Shown: one piece after another, positions 4,120 through 55,917 of the stretch
Layout of the letters: the number at the start of each line of letters is the position of its first letter
Position numbering within the stretch: position 1 is the first letter of the stretch
Source of the DNA: an uncultured bacterium
GTDB lineage: Bacteria > Cyanobacteriota > Vampirovibrionia > Gastranaerophilales > JAILCC01
Direction: 5' to 3'
Assembly: GCA_949283935.1 (NCBI GenBank)
Contig: CASDUJ010000006.1
Span: forward strand, 78,147 to 142,146
DNA: 64,000 nt
Notes under the pieces: generated by a model
What the model was told of the DNA's origin: nothing
The model's database searches: none
What the model saw: only the letters and a program-made list of their open reading frames with translations
Translations under genes and position numbers: made by a program

Positions 4120-5952
4120 ATGGAAAAAGAAAAAATTATTAGAGGTATTTCATATGCACTTTTGATTTTTTTTGTATTGAGTTTTTTGACTCTTTTAACA
4201 AAAGAAATACCCTTTGCAGATAATTTTTTTAAATCTTTAGAAGTTAAAAGTTTTGATTTTAGAGAAAATATACTAGCTAACATATACGGCCAAAAAAGAA
4301 CAGACAATTCGAAACTTGCTTTAATAGTTATAGATGATGATTCAATGGAAAAATTAACCGAACGTTATGGTTCTTGGCCTTGGAACAGAAGTTCTTATGC
4401 AGACATTATTCGATATTTGGTTAAAGATCAAGCTGATACAATATTTTTAGATTTTATGTTTTTAGGATTTCACCAAGGTAATGAACAAAAGGATTGGGAT
4501 TTTATTAACGAAGTAAGCAAAAACAAAAATATTTATATAGCTTTAAATTTTGATTTTCGCAAAAGTGAAGAAAATAGCGAACTACCTTTAGAGTTAGCAG
4601 CTAATTTGGATAACAAAAGTTTGTCAATAGATTTTAAGGATTTTACTTTTACAAATGTTAGAAGTATTATTCCTGAGCTTATGAAAGCAGCCTCAAACAT
4701 TGTTTTTATAAATTACCAAAGAGATAATGACGGTATATCAAGAAGAGCTCCAAGTTTTTTTGTATACAAAGAAAAATATTACCCATATGCTGCATTAAAA
4801 ATTGTTCAAGATTATATGCTTAGAAATAATATTATTGGAAGTGAAAAATTTACTATTACTTCTGATAATTATCTTGTGATGGGTTCTAAAAAAACAAAAC
4901 TTGATCGAGAAGGTTACTTAGTATTAAATTGGCACAACAAAAGTAATGTTGAAGAAATTCCATTTTGGAAAGTAATTGAAGGGAAAGTAGAAAAAGGATA
5001 TTTCAAAGATAAAATAGTAGCAATAGGAGCAAGTGCTGTTTCATTAGCTGACACAAAAAGCACACCTCTTGAAAGATATCTTCCAGGGGTGAAAATTCAC
5101 ACTACATATATGAACAACTTATTAAATTCAAATGCCATAAAACCTGTAGATTTTAAATTTAATCTTTTAATAACTTTTGTTTTTATTTTTACAACTAGTA
5201 TTTTACTTTTTAAAATAAATTCAAATTTATTCAATGCAATTAGTGTAATATTATTAATTATTTTGTATGTTTTATTTTCCACTTGGATTTTGGCGAAATA
5301 CAATTTATGGATTGATTTAGCATATCCAATATTTTTAATTTTATCTACATATACTGTTGTCTATGTTGTTAAATTTATAAGAAAATCTCAAGATTTTGAA
5401 AAGACATACAAACTTGCCACAACAGATGGATTAACGGAATTATACAATCACAGATATTTTCAAGAGCAAATGATTGCAAATATTGACACAGCTAAAAGAT
5501 ACAAGAACAATTTTAGTTTAATTATAATAGACATAGATTTTTTCAAAAAATTTAATGATAAATTTGGACATCAATCAGGTGATGCTGTTTTAAAACAAGT
5601 TGCTGGAATTTTAAAAAAATCTGTAAGAGCTTCTGATATTGTTGCGAGATACGGAGGAGAAGAAATGGCAATTATTCTCACAAATACTAATCTTGAAGAT
5701 GCTCAAATTACAGCGAACAAAATTTGCAAAGCTGTTGCCAATAAACCTTTTAAACTTGTTGGAGGTATTGAATGTAAAGTGACCATAAGTCTTGGGGTAG
5801 CAACTTATCCAATGCACGGAGAGAAGCCTCAAGATTTAATAGAAATAGCAGACAAAGGTTTATACAATGCAAAAGAAAATGGAAGAAATCAAGTAGGTAA
5901 AATTCCTTATGTTGAGCCAAAACAAAATGAAGAAAATTCTTTAGAGGAGTAA
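4120..5952 (+). CDS. CHASE2-domain diguanylate cyclase
   Basis: The 610-residue protein has an N-terminal membrane segment, an extracytoplasmic CHASE2 sensor domain (about 40-335, with the GSWPWNR signature), three membrane segments (about 345-420) and a C-terminal GGDEF domain (about 430-600). Its active-site loop reads GGEEM at 512-516, where GG[DE]EF is usual. An RxxD inhibitory site, RASD, lies at 503-506, five residues upstream as in product-inhibited cyclases. It should make cyclic di-GMP in response to an external signal, provided the Met substitution is tolerated. It follows the LysM gene by ten bases and is followed by asnS after two bases, so a read-through operon is likely. Confidence 0.88.
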
Positions 5953-50026: not shown

Positions 50027-53000
50027 ATGGATAGTGTTCACGAAAAAATAATATTAAATAATCAAAATCAAATTACTTCATATGAAATAGATACCGGTAC
50101 GGCTACTTTAGGCTATATTTATTCTGGACAAAACAAAACAGTTAAAATTAATTTCGAACTTTTTACTGATAGAGAATGTGATTTTATAGAAAATGCTTTT
50201 TATAAAAATCCTATTTTAAAAGAAGAATTAATTAATTCAAAATTAAATTTTTATTTTTTTGAATATTTGCTGCAAAATAATATCACAATAATCCCAAGTA
50301 AAATTGAAGATTTGTCTTTAAACAATGAAATACTTAACGAAGAAAAAATATTTATTTATGATTCACTTAAAACAATTTTTATGAAAAATCCTATATTAGC
50401 TCTTGATATAAAAGGGTTTGATACTGATGCAATGAAAGAAATTCTTGCCAAACAATTATTATTAACAAAAACAGAAAAACTAGATTTTATTCCAATAGAA
50501 AAAGTTAAAATAACTCAAAAGAATAATCTTCCAGAATATTATCGAATGAAAAAATTATATTCAGATGAAATTTTTGCAAATTTTTCTGAAAATCCGCAAT
50601 ATTTTGATAAAAAAGAATTCAAATCTAATATGATGGAACTTTACGATCTTATTAGAGATGAATTTGATAATGTTTTTGGATATGAAAATAATTTTTTCGC
50701 CAGAAACTCAAATTTTTATTGCATTTTTGGCAAAAAAGATATGAAATTTTTTGTTACTCCTACTATTAATTTCGAAATTTATCTAAAATCGAAAGGATCA
50801 ATGTTTAGAGCAACAAAAGAATTTAAAAATATCCCTGTAATTACAGGAGAAAAATTAATTTCAAAAAACATAACTGGTTTAACTTTGCCCAAATATATAG
50901 TTTATGATTACTTTTTAAGTTTTCAATCTTTAATAGAAAGTGAAGAAATAAGCCAAACAACCCGATTTTTTAATTACCTTACTTTACTTGCAAAAGACAT
51001 AGTAAAAACATTAAATATAAGACCTCACGTAATTTTTTTAGATGAACAATATTTCAAAATTAATTACAGCGTAGATTTTGAAAATCCCAAATTAAAGTCA
51101 ACTTTAAATTCAATTATAGATTACGCTGCAGAAAATTATGGAATAAGTGAAGATGGAAAAAATGTTGTAGCAAAATCATACATAAGAGAACTTTTAGACG
51201 ATATTATAAACTATATGGTGTATAAAATTTTAAATTTAAAAGTTTCAAAATTAAAACAAACTCCTGCAATAACTTTGTTTTCTCAAAATCAAGCTCATAA
51301 ATCAATTCGTTCAAACAAAAATATTGCAATAGCAATTATGGAGTGGCTTAACACTTTTAATCAAAATTCAAATCCGACCAAAATATTTGTTACATTTGAA
51401 AAAACAAATGAATTTGAATATAAAACAAAACTTTGTTTTAATAACAAAAAACAAACTTTTAATTTAAAAGAATTATTCACCCAAGAAGATGAAAATTTAA
51501 GAGAAATTATTGCGGCACAAATTCGTAGTGCATCAGAATTTATGCCCTCTTTAAAAAATATATATTGTTCTTTTGGATATTATGAGCCTATTGTTAATGC
51601 AATAGATATTATTAAAAATCTTTCCAAAATTTGTTCTATTTTGAATAGTTTTAATGTAGACATTTATATGCCTAAAGAATTACAGAACATTTTAAGACCA
51701 AAATTATCTATTAAAACAATTTTAAAATCAGACGCATCAAAAGATTTTTTGAACAATTTTGATGATCCAAATACCAATTATTCTCTAAATGATATAATGG
51801 AATTTTCATATGAAATAGCCATTGGAGATGAAAAACTTTCTAAAGAAGAATTTTTAAAATTAATTGAAAATTCAGGTGAATTAATAAACTTCAAAAATAA
51901 ATATGTGCTTTTAAATGAAGGTGAAATTAAAAAAATTCTCGAAAATCTTGACAAACCAATTGACAAAGCACTTAATAGACTTGAACTAATTCATAGTGTT
52001 TTTGCCGGTAAAATTGATGATTTCGAAACAGATTACGAAGATGCTATAAGAGAAGCTATAAAATCACATTTAAATGTAAAAGAAGTTGAACCTCCAAATA
52101 GTCTCAAAGATATACTAAGACCTTATCAAGCATATGGTTTCAAATGGCTTTATTCCAACATAATGAAAGGATTTGGTTGTTGTATTGCAGATGATATGGG
52201 ACTTGGCAAAACAATTCAAATTCTTAGTCTTATATTAAAATTAAAAGACGAAAAAAAATTAACAAAACCTGCTTTAGTAGTATGTCCGACAACTCTTGTG
52301 GGTAATTGGTTAAAAGAATGTGAAAAATTTGCTCCTGAATTAAAAGTAAGTATTTATCATGGAATAAATCGTATTTTGAACCTAAAATCTGATGTTGTCA
52401 TAACAACATACGGACATTTAAGAGCTGATTTAGAAATAATGAAAAAATACGAATGGGGTATGTTAATAATTGATGAAGCACAAAGTATTAAAAATCCTGC
52501 AACTGCACAATCCAAAGCTATTAAATCTCTAGTTACTCCTTGCAAAATTGCAATGACAGGTACTCCTATAGAAAATCGTCTAAGTGAATTATGGAGTATT
52601 TTTGATTTTATCAACAAAGGATATTTAGGTAGTTCTTCTGAATTTCAAGACAAATATGTTTTTGAAATTGAAAAATTAAAGCAAAATCAAGCTGCTCAAA
52701 GACTTCAATTAGTTACTTCTCCTTTTATTTTAAGAAGACTAAAGACAGATAAGAAAATTATTGACGATTTACCTGAAAAAATTGTTTTTGATGAGTATTG
52801 TTATTTAACACCTGAGCAAGCTGCTTTGTATGAATCAACTCTTAATTCAACTATGAAACTTGTAGAAGAATCTAGTGGAATTAATCGAAGAGGTATGATT
52901 TTAAAACTTATTACTTCATTAAAACAGATTTGTAATCATCCTGCAAATTATTTGAAGAATCAAGATTTTTCTTATGATTTGTCAGGAAAAACTAAGAAAA

Positions 53001-53503
53001 TTTTTGCAATAGTAGATTTGATTTTGCAAGCAGGAGAGAAGGTTTTGATATTTACTCAATACAAAGAAATGGGAGAAATTTTAAACAAAATTATAAAGCA
53101 AGAACTTCACGAAAAGGTTTTATTTTTTCATGGTTCATTAAACAGACAAGAAAGAGAAAACTTAATTGAGCAATTCCAAAATGATGATGCCACAAAAGTT
53201 ATGGTATTGTCACTAAAAGCTGGAGGAACAGGATTAAACCTTACTGCTGCTACAAATGTTATACATTTTGATTTATGGTGGAATCCTGCCGTGGAAACAC
53301 AGGCTACTGATAGAACATACAGAATAGGTCAAAATAAAAATGTAACGGTGCATCGTTTAATAACTTTAGGAACTTTTGAAGAAAAAATTGACGAAATATT
53401 AAAAAACAAACAAAAATTAGTAGATATGACACTTTATACAGGCGAAACAATGTTGGGAGATCTTTCTAACGAAGAATTAATGGAAATCTTTAGATTAAGA
53501 TAA
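50027..53503 (+). CDS. SNF2-family helicase-like ATPase
   Basis: The 1158-residue protein carries a complete SNF2 motor in its C-terminal 450 residues: DDMGLGKTIQ near 722, the DEAQ box in LIIDEAQSIKNPA near 815, SLKAGGTGLNLTAATNVIH and ATDRTYRIGQ. SNF2 proteins translocate on double-stranded DNA and remodel bound proteins; bacterial examples include RapA-like and defence-linked forms. The N-terminal 690 residues are Lys/Asn/Phe-rich with no zinc finger or domain I recognise. No nuclease or methylase is adjacent, so a defence role has no support here. A TATAAT box lies at 49996-50001. Confidence 0.88.
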   Translation: MDSVHEKIILNNQNQITSYEIDTGTATLGYIYSGQNKTVKINFELFTDRECDFIENAFYKNPILKEELINSKLNFYFFEYLLQNNITIIPSKIEDLSLNNEILNEEKIFIYDSLKTIFMKNPILALDIKGFDTDAMKEILAKQLLLTKTEKLDFIPIEKVKITQKNNLPEYYRMKKLYSDEIFANFSENPQYFDKKEFKSNMMELYDLIRDEFDNVFGYENNFFARNSNFYCIFGKKDMKFFVTPTINFEIYLKSKGSMFRATKEFKNIPVITGEKLISKNITGLTLPKYIVYDYFLSFQSLIESEEISQTTRFFNYLTLLAKDIVKTLNIRPHVIFLDEQYFKINYSVDFENPKLKSTLNSIIDYAAENYGISEDGKNVVAKSYIRELLDDIINYMVYKILNLKVSKLKQTPAITLFSQNQAHKSIRSNKNIAIAIMEWLNTFNQNSNPTKIFVTFEKTNEFEYKTKLCFNNKKQTFNLKELFTQEDENLREIIAAQIRSASEFMPSLKNIYCSFGYYEPIVNAIDIIKNLSKICSILNSFNVDIYMPKELQNILRPKLSIKTILKSDASKDFLNNFDDPNTNYSLNDIMEFSYEIAIGDEKLSKEEFLKLIENSGELINFKNKYVLLNEGEIKKILENLDKPIDKALNRLELIHSVFAGKIDDFETDYEDAIREAIKSHLNVKEVEPPNSLKDILRPYQAYGFKWLYSNIMKGFGCCIADDMGLGKTIQILSLILKLKDEKKLTKPALVVCPTTLVGNWLKECEKFAPELKVSIYHGINRILNLKSDVVITTYGHLRADLEIMKKYEWGMLIIDEAQSIKNPATAQSKAIKSLVTPCKIAMTGTPIENRLSELWSIFDFINKGYLGSSSEFQDKYVFEIEKLKQNQAAQRLQLVTSPFILRRLKTDKKIIDDLPEKIVFDEYCYLTPEQAALYESTLNSTMKLVEESSGINRRGMILKLITSLKQICNHPANYLKNQDFSYDLSGKTKKIFAIVDLILQAGEKVLIFTQYKEMGEILNKIIKQELHEKVLFFHGSLNRQERENLIEQFQNDDATKVMVLSLKAGGTGLNLTAATNVIHFDLWWNPAVETQATDRTYRIGQNKNVTVHRLITLGTFEEKIDEILKNKQKLVDMTLYTGETMLGDLSNEELMEIFRLR

Positions 53504-53504
53504 T

Positions 53505-54716
53505 TTAATCAAAAAATTCTTCCAAATCAGTTTCCGTTTTTATTTCTTCTTTTACAAAAGCAAAAATATCATAAATTTCATTTATTCCAAGTTGTAGTAA
53601 TTCTAAATTTATATTGTCAAAAAATTCTGGTTCTAAATCAATTTCCTTTTGACTAACATGTGCAAAAATATTTGCAATAGCAACTACTGTAACCATTTTA
53701 CGATGTTCCGGTAAAGCTTCTTGAGGAGCATGGTGATATCTAATTGTTTCAGATATAGCTTCAGGAAGATTCCAATGTTCTGCTATTAAATGACCAACTT
53801 CACAGTGATTTAATCCGCAATATTTTTTTTCAACTGCAAGATTTTGAACTAAATCTAAATCAGAAAAATCAGTAAGAGCCAAAATATAATTCCCATGATC
53901 ATATTGATCAAGAATAATTTTACCCATATCATGCAAAATTGAAGCACTAAAAAGATTTTCGCTATCATATGTTTTCAAAATTTTGTTAATATGTTTAGCA
54001 ATAATTGCACACAACAAAGAATGTTTCCATAGTTTTTTGTAATCTAACATTTTAACTAAATTATCTTTGGGTGCAAAAACTCTAAAAATACTTGAAGAAA
54101 GAACTAACCCTCGAATTGTTGTAAAACCTAAAATTGCTATTGCATGTTGAATTGAAGAAATTTGCTTTGGGAAACCATAATAAGCTGAATTTACTAATCT
54201 TAAAACTCTAGCTGTAAGTCCTGCATCATTAGAAATTAATTTAGCAAGTTGTAAAGCAGAAGAATTTGGATTTTGTACTAATTCAATTACTTTATTAACA
54301 ATTTCAGGAAGAGAGGGAATATCTCTCACTTTTTCTTTAATTTTTTCTGCTTTTTCTATTATTTTTTCGTCTGTATCAGGAGACAAAGACATATTTTCTG
54401 TGAGAGAATGAAGTTTTATTCCATTTTTCTTTAATTCATCAACCACCCAAACTTTTGCAACGGTATCTTGAGCAATTCTATCAAGATTTAATACTATTAC
54501 ATGTTGAAATTTGCCTTTGCTTGAATCATCTAAAAGTCTAAACAATTCTGATTTATAATCTTCTGTACTTTCTTTTGGTTCTTCATATATTTCAATACAT
54601 TCAAGGTCATTTAATTGACAAAATTCTCTAATACGTTCTTGTTGAACTTTTAATTCAATTTCACGTTCAATATCATGTCGTTTTGTTGAACTTATATAAC
54701 CTACAGCTTCTTTCAA
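53505..54716 (-). CDS. Degenerate serine-recombinase domain fused to HDOD
   Basis: The 403-residue protein has two parts. Residues 1 to about 112 follow the resolvase N-terminal fold: GYISS at the start, QQERIREFC, then HVIVLNLDRIAQDTV and NGIKLHSLTEN. Compared with gamma-delta resolvase the nucleophile position is Thr11 rather than Ser, the first Arg is Ser9, and the second Arg of L-D-R-x-x-R is Gln83; only Asp79-Arg80 remain. Residues about 132-330 are an HDOD domain (IPSLPEIVNKVIELVQNPNS, LVNSAYYGF, LHDMGK). HDOD proteins act in signalling. The recombinase part is probably a non-catalytic dimer module. It is convergent with the SNF2 gene and overlaps nothing. Confidence 0.8.
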   Translation of the reverse strand: MKEAVGYISSTKRHDIEREIELKVQQERIREFCQLNDLECIEIYEEPKESTEDYKSELFRLLDDSSKGKFQHVIVLNLDRIAQDTVAKVWVVDELKKNGIKLHSLTENMSLSPDTDEKIIEKAEKIKEKVRDIPSLPEIVNKVIELVQNPNSSALQLAKLISNDAGLTARVLRLVNSAYYGFPKQISSIQHAIAILGFTTIRGLVLSSSIFRVFAPKDNLVKMLDYKKLWKHSLLCAIIAKHINKILKTYDSENLFSASILHDMGKIILDQYDHGNYILALTDFSDLDLVQNLAVEKKYCGLNHCEVGHLIAEHWNLPEAISETIRYHHAPQEALPEHRKMVTVVAIANIFAHVSQKEIDLEPEFFDNINLELLQLGINEIYDIFAFVKEEIKTETDLEEFFD

Positions 54717-54737: not shown

Positions 54738-55787
54738 TTAAATGTCGTAATCTTTACAAGCTTCACAAGTACGCATATTTTTCAAAATAGCTTTATCCAA
54801 TTCTTCTGATGCAACAATTTTGCCATTTACAAATGTTGGCTCATAACTTCTTATTGGATCTTTGTCTAATCTTTCTTTTAATACACTATAATCTTCTTGT
54901 GCATACAATTTTTTGGACGTTTCATTTAATACATCATAAATATATCTGGTTTTAAAACCATCACCTTCCGAATCAACTATTAATGCGGCTTTTTCTAATT
55001 CTAAAATTGCATCAAGATAATTATGTTGTTCTCTTAGTAAAATTGCAAGATTATAATGCACATCATAATCAAAAGGACGCATATTAATACATTTACAATA
55101 AACTTTTTTAGCTTCTTCATAATCTCCTAGTAAATGTAAACTTAAAGCAAGATTAAAATAACTGTCATAACTGTATTGCATTAATCTTATAGCCGCTTTG
55201 TAGGATTTAATTGCATTTTGTAAATTCGTACGTACTTCTATTGGATCTTGACCATAAATTAAAGATTTCCATTTATATGCCAATCCCATATTATGATAAG
55301 CAACTGATTTATTATAAATTACATAATCTTTGTTGTTATATACAAGCGGAATATTAATAAACAAAGGTGCTCTATCTATTGATGTTTTATATTCTTTTAT
55401 TGCTCTGTCATATTCAAAAAATCTTTCAGAAAGTATTATGCCTAAAGCTATTCTAGCATTCATAAAATTCGGATTGTACAAAAGTGCATGTTCATAATAT
55501 CTTAAAGAACTATCATAATCTTCGTATACAGCCAAAATATTTCCAAGGTTATAACTTGCTTTAGAATGTCCAGGATAAAGTTTTAAGGCTGCTCTGTAGT
55601 AATTTATTGCTCCTATTAAATCATTTTGGGAATATTTTTTATCACCTTTGTAAACAAAATAATAAGCATTTATTATTTTCCCTGCTGTTTTTACTTTGTT
55701 TGGAAAAGCAAAACAAAAAGCAACAGAAGCAAGTAACAAAACCGCCAAAATAATTTTCATTGCCGTACTACGTATAAATTTCAGCAT
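54738..55787 (-). CDS. Membrane-anchored TPR protein
   Basis: From the ATG at 55787 the 349-residue protein begins with a membrane segment (about 10-30, MKIILAVLLLASVAFCFAF). About six TPR units follow (for example NYYRAALKLYPGHSKASYNL and YYEHALLYNPNFMNARIAL). The C-terminus ends with a CEACKD segment. AGGA seven bases upstream supports this start; a longer frame from 55847 has no site. It lies 21 bases before the resolvase-HDOD gene on the same strand, so the two may be co-transcribed and form a scaffold plus signalling protein; that is inference. Confidence 0.75.
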   Translation of the reverse strand: MLKFIRSTAMKIILAVLLLASVAFCFAFPNKVKTAGKIINAYYFVYKGDKKYSQNDLIGAINYYRAALKLYPGHSKASYNLGNILAVYEDYDSSLRYYEHALLYNPNFMNARIALGIILSERFFEYDRAIKEYKTSIDRAPLFINIPLVYNNKDYVIYNKSVAYHNMGLAYKWKSLIYGQDPIEVRTNLQNAIKSYKAAIRLMQYSYDSYFNLALSLHLLGDYEEAKKVYCKCINMRPFDYDVHYNLAILLREQHNYLDAILELEKAALIVDSEGDGFKTRYIYDVLNETSKKLYAQEDYSVLKERLDKDPIRSYEPTFVNGKIVASEELDKAILKNMRTCEACKDYDI

Positions 55788-55917
55788 ATAATTTCCTATC
55801 CTATCAATTAATATTATACCCCTCTCTAAGTCTGTTAGGGAATACACAATTTAGACTAAAGTTGCTTATATAATATTGCATATATTCGACTCTTACCCAG
55901 ACACAATCCAATTTCAC

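Follow-up and report, generated by a model that had tools for sequence, protein, structure and literature searches.

A gene in a 64,000-nucleotide stretch of contig CASDUJ010000006.1 (the window), from an uncultured bacterium of the Gastranaerophilales, encodes a protein in which a serine-recombinase catalytic core, stripped of its catalytic residues, is followed by an HDOD domain. Proteins of this build form a single clade inside the Melainabacteria/Gastranaerophilales line, and in part of that clade the gene lies between genes for a tetratricopeptide repeat (TPR) protein and a diguanylate cyclase. We propose that the fusion protein is a non-enzymatic relay in cyclic diguanosine monophosphate (c-di-GMP) signalling that cooperates with those two proteins, a reading to which we give about an even chance of being right. 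The residue loss, the single clade and the gene order are observed, the fold is predicted, and the molecular function is an inference. HDOD signalling proteins are already known. What looks new is the recombinase domain in front of them, its occurrence in one clade and its position next to TPR and cyclase genes. A literature search pairing HDOD with resolvase found nothing within the terms and collection searched, and nothing relevant on inactive serine recombinases in signalling was found in the literature searched.

Results

Domain layout and catalytic residues

The original prediction assigned residues 1-112 to the resolvase catalytic fold and residues 132-330 to HDOD, and both assignments agree with Pfam. 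The Resolvase match covers residues 18-119 (E 1.8e-12, profile positions 12-113 of 145), and the HDOD match covers residues 133-331 and the whole profile (1-196 of 196) with an E value of 7.3e-60 and 202.3 bits against a curated cut-off of 22.9. A GAGG sequence lies 8 nt 5' of the TTG start. The features of the gene are as follows.

53505..54716, minus strand: pseudo-recombinase-HDOD fusion gene, 403 amino acids, TTG start
54381..54716, minus strand: residues 1-112, serine-recombinase catalytic core without catalytic residues
54690..54692, minus strand: Ser9, column of resolvase catalytic Arg8 (Arg in 0 of 120 family members)
54684..54686, minus strand: Thr11, column of nucleophile Ser10 (Ser in 20 of 120, Tyr in 69 of 120)
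54477..54482, minus strand: Asp79-Arg80, equivalent of Asp67-Arg68 (pair kept in 64 of 120)
54468..54470, minus strand: Gln83, column of catalytic Arg71 (Arg in 2 of 120)
54321..54380, minus strand: residues 113-132, variable linker with a predicted short helix (116-129) leading into HDOD, in place of helix E
53724..54320, minus strand: residues 133-331, HDOD domain (Pfam)
53508..53723, minus strand: residues 332-403, helical tail of lower conservation

Among 5.8 billion proteins searched, 466 match the window protein, and all family figures refer to the 120 of these that were listed, the window protein included. Each listed protein covers at least 96% of the query, at 41-100% identity, and at E <= 0.001 Pfam finds HDOD in all 120 and Resolvase in 114, so the fusion is not a chance product. 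We aligned the 120 proteins with 20 control serine recombinases from the same phylum, picked by their likeness to the N-terminal domain of the fusion; they are 20 of 22 recombinase-type matches and come from 19 genomes (G037 and G242 were left out). We take Arg8, Ser10 and Arg71 of gamma-delta resolvase to correspond to Ser9, Thr11 and Gln83 of the window protein, and Asp67-Arg68 to correspond to Asp79-Arg80.

At the Arg8, Ser10, Arg68 and Arg71 columns the controls are invariant (Arg, Ser, Arg and Arg, each in 20 of 20), and 19 of them also have Gln14, while the fusion family keeps the control residue in 0, 20, 80 and 2 of its 120 rows respectively. No row has two of Arg8, Ser10 and Arg71 together, and an active recombinase is ruled out by these columns. 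The replacement of the nucleophile and two catalytic arginines, first noticed in the window protein, thus extends through its two-domain homologues. At family position 11, the nucleophile column, tyrosine is found in the 69 rows given above. In an alignment with the MJ0014 hidden Markov model, a one-residue gap would shift family Ser10 into the nucleophile column. No gap is present in this region when the family is aligned with TP901-1 or with the 20 controls. Since no row has an arginine anywhere at positions 8-11, the core is inactive whichever register holds.

The original prediction that only Asp79-Arg80 remain of the old active site was too strict. At least one of the two is lost in 56 rows, and other positions of the pocket are kept as in most true recombinases: Tyr7 in all 120 rows, Gln25 in 119, Glu or Asp at 46 in 120 and Lys or Arg at 55 in 115. 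The family also has constants of its own, namely Ser10 (114 rows; Val, Tyr or Phe in the controls), Cys33 (120 rows; mostly Ala in the controls) and Trp90 (103 rows). Mean pairwise identity over 3000 sampled pairs is 39% in the N-terminal part against 65% in HDOD. Judging by the kept pocket positions and the family-specific constants, selection seems to act on the N-terminal domain, for a function other than cutting DNA.

One such function would be sensing, with the old active site turned into a ligand pocket through which a small anionic molecule or nucleotide switches the HDOD domain. Retention of Tyr7, Gln25, Glu/Asp46 and Lys/Arg55, while the equivalents of Arg8, Ser10, Gln14 and Arg71 are mostly or wholly lost, speaks for a pocket, as do the family-specific Ser10 and Cys33. 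However, the retained residues may be structural, and the Asp79-Arg80 pair is incomplete in nearly half of the rows, so that we regard a ligand pocket as possible but rather improbable.

Predicted fold and the missing DNA-binding parts

Structure prediction for residues 1-112 gives a recombinase fold, in line with the original prediction, and the resolvase-type catalytic fold is predicted to be retained even in a family member that Pfam no longer recognises. The best fold match of the modelled core is the catalytic domain of the IS607-family transposase TnpA (PDB 6dgc). In sequence, the N-terminal domain profile comes closest to the large serine integrase TP901-1 (PDB 3bvp, E 5.5e-9), where the conserved Tyr and Gln lie as far apart as in the fusion. 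IS607 TnpA has helix E and an N-terminal DNA-binding domain, both of which are missing from the fusion together with the nucleophile and the two arginines. Compared with the large serine integrases, the fusion likewise lacks the catalytic residues and all of the C-terminal recombinase domains.

The absence of helix E can be read from the domain boundaries, as the Resolvase match does not extend beyond profile position 113 and the HDOD domain begins 14 residues further along, with just the helix at 116-129 between core and HDOD in the model. Behind the core the controls continue into longer sequences of their own and the family members shown pass into HDOD. No DNA-binding domain scores above cut-off in the fusion protein, where residues 133-331 are taken up by HDOD.

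These absences bear on the idea that the core has retained DNA recognition and directs HDOD signalling to a site on the chromosome. The fold does belong to a DNA-acting enzyme, but with helix E and a DNA-binding domain both missing recognition of a DNA locus is unlikely, and the net charge of the core is lower than in the controls, although the difference is weak (family mean -1.5, sd 2.8, against +0.7, sd 4.0, in the 20 controls; -6 and pI 5.1 in the window protein). We consider DNA targeting very improbable. Of the original suggestion that an inactive recombinase fold has been reused, perhaps for dimerisation or recognition of a DNA locus, the retained inactive core stands and the DNA-locus part is unlikely.

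The missing helix also speaks against a dimer of the kind that small resolvases form through helix E. According to excerpts of the IS607 TnpA study (PMC6188088), however, the TnpA core dimerises through helices B and D rather than helix E, and the fusion could thus pair in the absence of that helix. In the model the conserved Trp90 would sit in helix 85-97, the counterpart of the IS607 dimer helix.

A protein that has kept a predicted serine-recombinase fold might also act in a dominant-negative way, pairing with incoming serine recombinases and blocking them, and recombinase-type matches do occur in other genomes of the phylum. Against this, the helix through which small serine recombinases pair is absent and the family is a single clade found partly beside signalling genes. 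The genome that carries the window yielded no further Resolvase-domain gene, and the fusion therefore hardly serves a resident recombinase. Of the alternatives discussed here we give this the lowest probability, slightly below DNA targeting.

A single clade of fusion proteins

A scan of one genome per species (84,980 species) gave 305 loci, of which the best 80 were kept. The fusion is present in 16 of these 80 (L010-L022 and L024-L026), all from the Melainabacteria/Gastranaerophilales line as judged by title or tree position, with about the first dozen residues of the N-terminal domain absent in L017; in the loci from other phyla among the 80, the match begins at residue 87 or beyond. The closest named proteins and contigs are mostly from Candidatus Gastranaerophilales or Melainabacteria. 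Together with the window, L098 and L101, the scan loci make 19 distinct fusion genomes; L099 and L100, taken to be the same genomes as L022 and L021, are duplicates in the tree and counted once elsewhere. In a survey of 386 genomes of the phylum, in which up to four candidates were scored per genome, the full fusion was found in five, the window's own genome (1.73 Mb in 42 contigs) included, and each of the five also has a separate stand-alone HDOD gene.

In a tree of 111 HDOD domains the 21 fusion rows, two of them duplicates, group with L023 in one clade of 22 rows with support of 100/98, and the stand-alone HDOD gene of the window's genome falls outside it. L023 is cut by a contig end within the N-terminal domain and was labelled separate, so the fusion label needs two changes on the tree. 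The fusion is thus a single clade inside the Melainabacteria/Gastranaerophilales line.

Residues 1-122 of the window protein, used as a query on their own, gave 16 proteins out of 210 candidates, every one a fusion. As to intact, separate N-terminal domains, a profile search found just three short proteins of 115-121 amino acids, P0122-P0124, which resemble the L025 type. They come from contigs of 651, 529 and, for P0123, 3354 bases; we take them for fragments, which for P0123 is not proven. Phage records gave seven matches, none reaching 80% of the query: six cover the HDOD part only and one residues 15-115. Microcystis phage MaAM05 (MW495066.1, 274 kb) encodes at 66416-67231 a protein 41% identical to residues 130-398 and annotated as ribonuclease Y.

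Neighbouring genes

The original prediction placed the fusion next to a TPR gene, and the two are indeed adjacent.

54738..55847, minus strand: TPR gene, directly upstream of the fusion gene, with a hydrophobic N-terminal segment

Its stop lies 21 nt from the fusion start on the same strand, and comparison with L010 suggests that its true start is probably an ATG near 55787. Of the 19 fusion genomes, six (L011, L021, L022, L024, L025 and L101) carry the TPR gene, the fusion gene and the diguanylate cyclase gene in this order and on the same strand, with gaps that range from a 4-base overlap in L021 to about 300 bases in L011. The cyclase also lies next to and downstream of the fusion in L019, which is cut upstream by the contig end, and in L020, where a TPR gene is found upstream with an opposite-strand gene in between. 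In L010, L098 and the window the TPR gene is present and the cyclase is not adjacent. The upstream gene in L016 is a different TPR gene.

GGDEF matches in the four adjacent cyclases that were scanned have E values from 7e-45 to 2e-51, and GGEEF and RxxD are intact in seven of the eight, which are the seven examined. In the window's genome the counterpart (L093) is on another contig; it is full-length with GGEEF intact, and is 33-39% identical to the seven over 476-487 residues. The gene upstream of it (L178, G000:C3:60000-64400) weakly resembles the TPR protein, with 27.5% over residues 52-180 (E 8e-9). A strong hydrophobic segment near the N-terminus is found in all nine TPR proteins tested (19-residue mean 2.5-3.0), whereas the fusion and three cyclases reach only 1.4-1.8 on the same measure; this predicts that the TPR proteins are membrane-anchored.

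To see the TPR and cyclase genes in genomes without the fusion we used 30 loci, 12 from genera g15 and g25 (L147-L158) and 18 from 18 further genera (L159-L176). The TPR and cyclase genes abut or overlap in 12 of 12 loci from g15 and g25 and are neighbours in 9 of the other 18, which gives 21 of 30; L168 was counted as adjacent, one match running on from the end of the TPR frame and the cyclase frame overlay being drawn at the TPR frame. We therefore see TPR and cyclase as a widespread pair with the fusion as an optional middle gene. A stand-alone HDOD gene is present in 20 of the 21 genomes with the pair (the exception is G303) against none of the nine without it, which is what one would expect if the TPR, cyclase and HDOD proteins cooperate.

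Six loci contain a divergent neighbour beside the fusion, from a conserved family of about 201-222 residues. No Pfam match was found for it in L012, L014, L015 and L018, and no NCBIfam match in L012, L014 and L015.

L012:149-751, minus strand: 201-222-residue neighbour
L014:4148-4750, minus strand: 201-222-residue neighbour
L015:2476-3087, minus strand: 201-222-residue neighbour
L018:4556-5221, minus strand: 201-222-residue neighbour
L020:5180-5794, minus strand: 201-222-residue neighbour
L026:5278-5898, minus strand: 201-222-residue neighbour

In the window, a gene for an SNF2-type helicase with DUF3670 (1158 residues, 50027-53503, plus strand) converges on the fusion gene, the two ends being 1 base apart. 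An Rfam scan of the window gave one tRNA and nothing close to the fusion gene.

Discussion

c-di-GMP is probably used in the window's genome, which has seven GGDEF and two PilZ matches. There is no EAL match, and degradation of c-di-GMP would therefore need HD-type enzymes or other routes. Another GGDEF protein is encoded at the opposite end of the window, in a 611-residue open frame with its GGDEF part at 5377-5895. Nothing on c-di-GMP in Gastranaerophilales was found in the literature searched.

One such HD-type enzyme could be the fusion itself, if its HDOD domain were catalytically active as a metal-dependent phosphodiesterase and broke down what the cyclase makes, under the control of the dead recombinase domain. 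The histidine-rich positions of the domain are nearly invariant, with His232, His262-Asp263, His304 and His328-His329 kept in 117-120 of the 120 proteins. Asn349, behind HDOD and kept in 118, is presumably at the position of the last Asp of HD enzymes, which counts against activity. In contrast to the HD-GYP phosphodiesterases, the fusion sequence has no GYP signature (it reads LHDMGK at 261-266 and RYHHAP at 326-331), and activity is not expected for HDOD. HD-type matches elsewhere in the same genome may be the true phosphodiesterases. HDOD domains are also described as being without phosphodiesterase activity in excerpts of PMC6543031. We consider an active phosphodiesterase unlikely, less probable than a ligand pocket; these two are the only alternatives that we still find reasonable, DNA targeting and a block on recombinases not being so.

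The closest studied analogue of the fusion is SadB of Pseudomonas, a YbaK-HDOD protein (PDB 9qzk). Excerpts of PMC6543031 report that SadB binds c-di-GMP with a Kd of 0.23 uM and ran as a dimer, and that the cyclase AdrA acts upstream of it. Both proteins place an enzyme-like domain in front of HDOD, although that domain is YbaK-like in SadB and a Resolvase core in the fusion, and the c-di-GMP binding is a measurement made on SadB. In the relay that we propose, by analogy with SadB, HDOD would be the regulatory part and would bind either c-di-GMP or a c-di-GMP-responsive partner; the signalling function of HDOD in the fusion is suggested by gene order and relatives. The dead recombinase core would be a docking or dimerisation module; helix E being gone, it might pair through helices B and D as in IS607 TnpA. 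In the window's genome, with the cyclase counterpart encoded elsewhere, cyclase and fusion would meet as proteins and not as gene neighbours.

Several points weigh against such a relay. In eight of the 19 fusion genomes, which form one subclade (L012-L018 and L026), the stretch examined shows no adjacent gene of this TPR family or for the cyclase, some of the contigs being short, and the cyclases of the window's genome and of G214 are unlinked. The N-terminal part of the adjacent cyclase is found in 171 of the 386 genomes, those listed belonging, with one exception, to the same taxonomic order; this cyclase family mostly occurs without the fusion and so does not need it, and 9 of the 30 loci without the fusion lack the TPR neighbour of the cyclase as well. 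The co-occurrence of HDOD with the TPR-cyclase pair may be a single event in one branch. The structure model is weak at residues 132-219 and uninformative on domain arrangement and dimers, and the role of HDOD domains is not established according to the excerpts of PMC6543031.

A more specific reading joins the pocket to the relay. A site-specific DNA recombinase would have become the receiver in a second-messenger pathway. Its emptied active site would hold a ligand and its core would act as a dimer switch for the HDOD output, the gene having been placed a single time between a membrane-TPR gene and a diguanylate-cyclase gene in Melainabacteria. We put this forward tentatively, as clearly less probable than the non-enzymatic relay in general.

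The fusion family shows clearly how a recombinase domain can be stripped of its catalytic residues and still be kept by a bacterial lineage for another job. If such genes were annotated from their Resolvase domain only, they would wrongly be called recombinases. With YbaK in SadB and a recombinase core here, HDOD proteins are a place where dead or borrowed enzyme folds act as front domains, and the family gives a first handle on the c-di-GMP wiring of the non-photosynthetic relatives of cyanobacteria.
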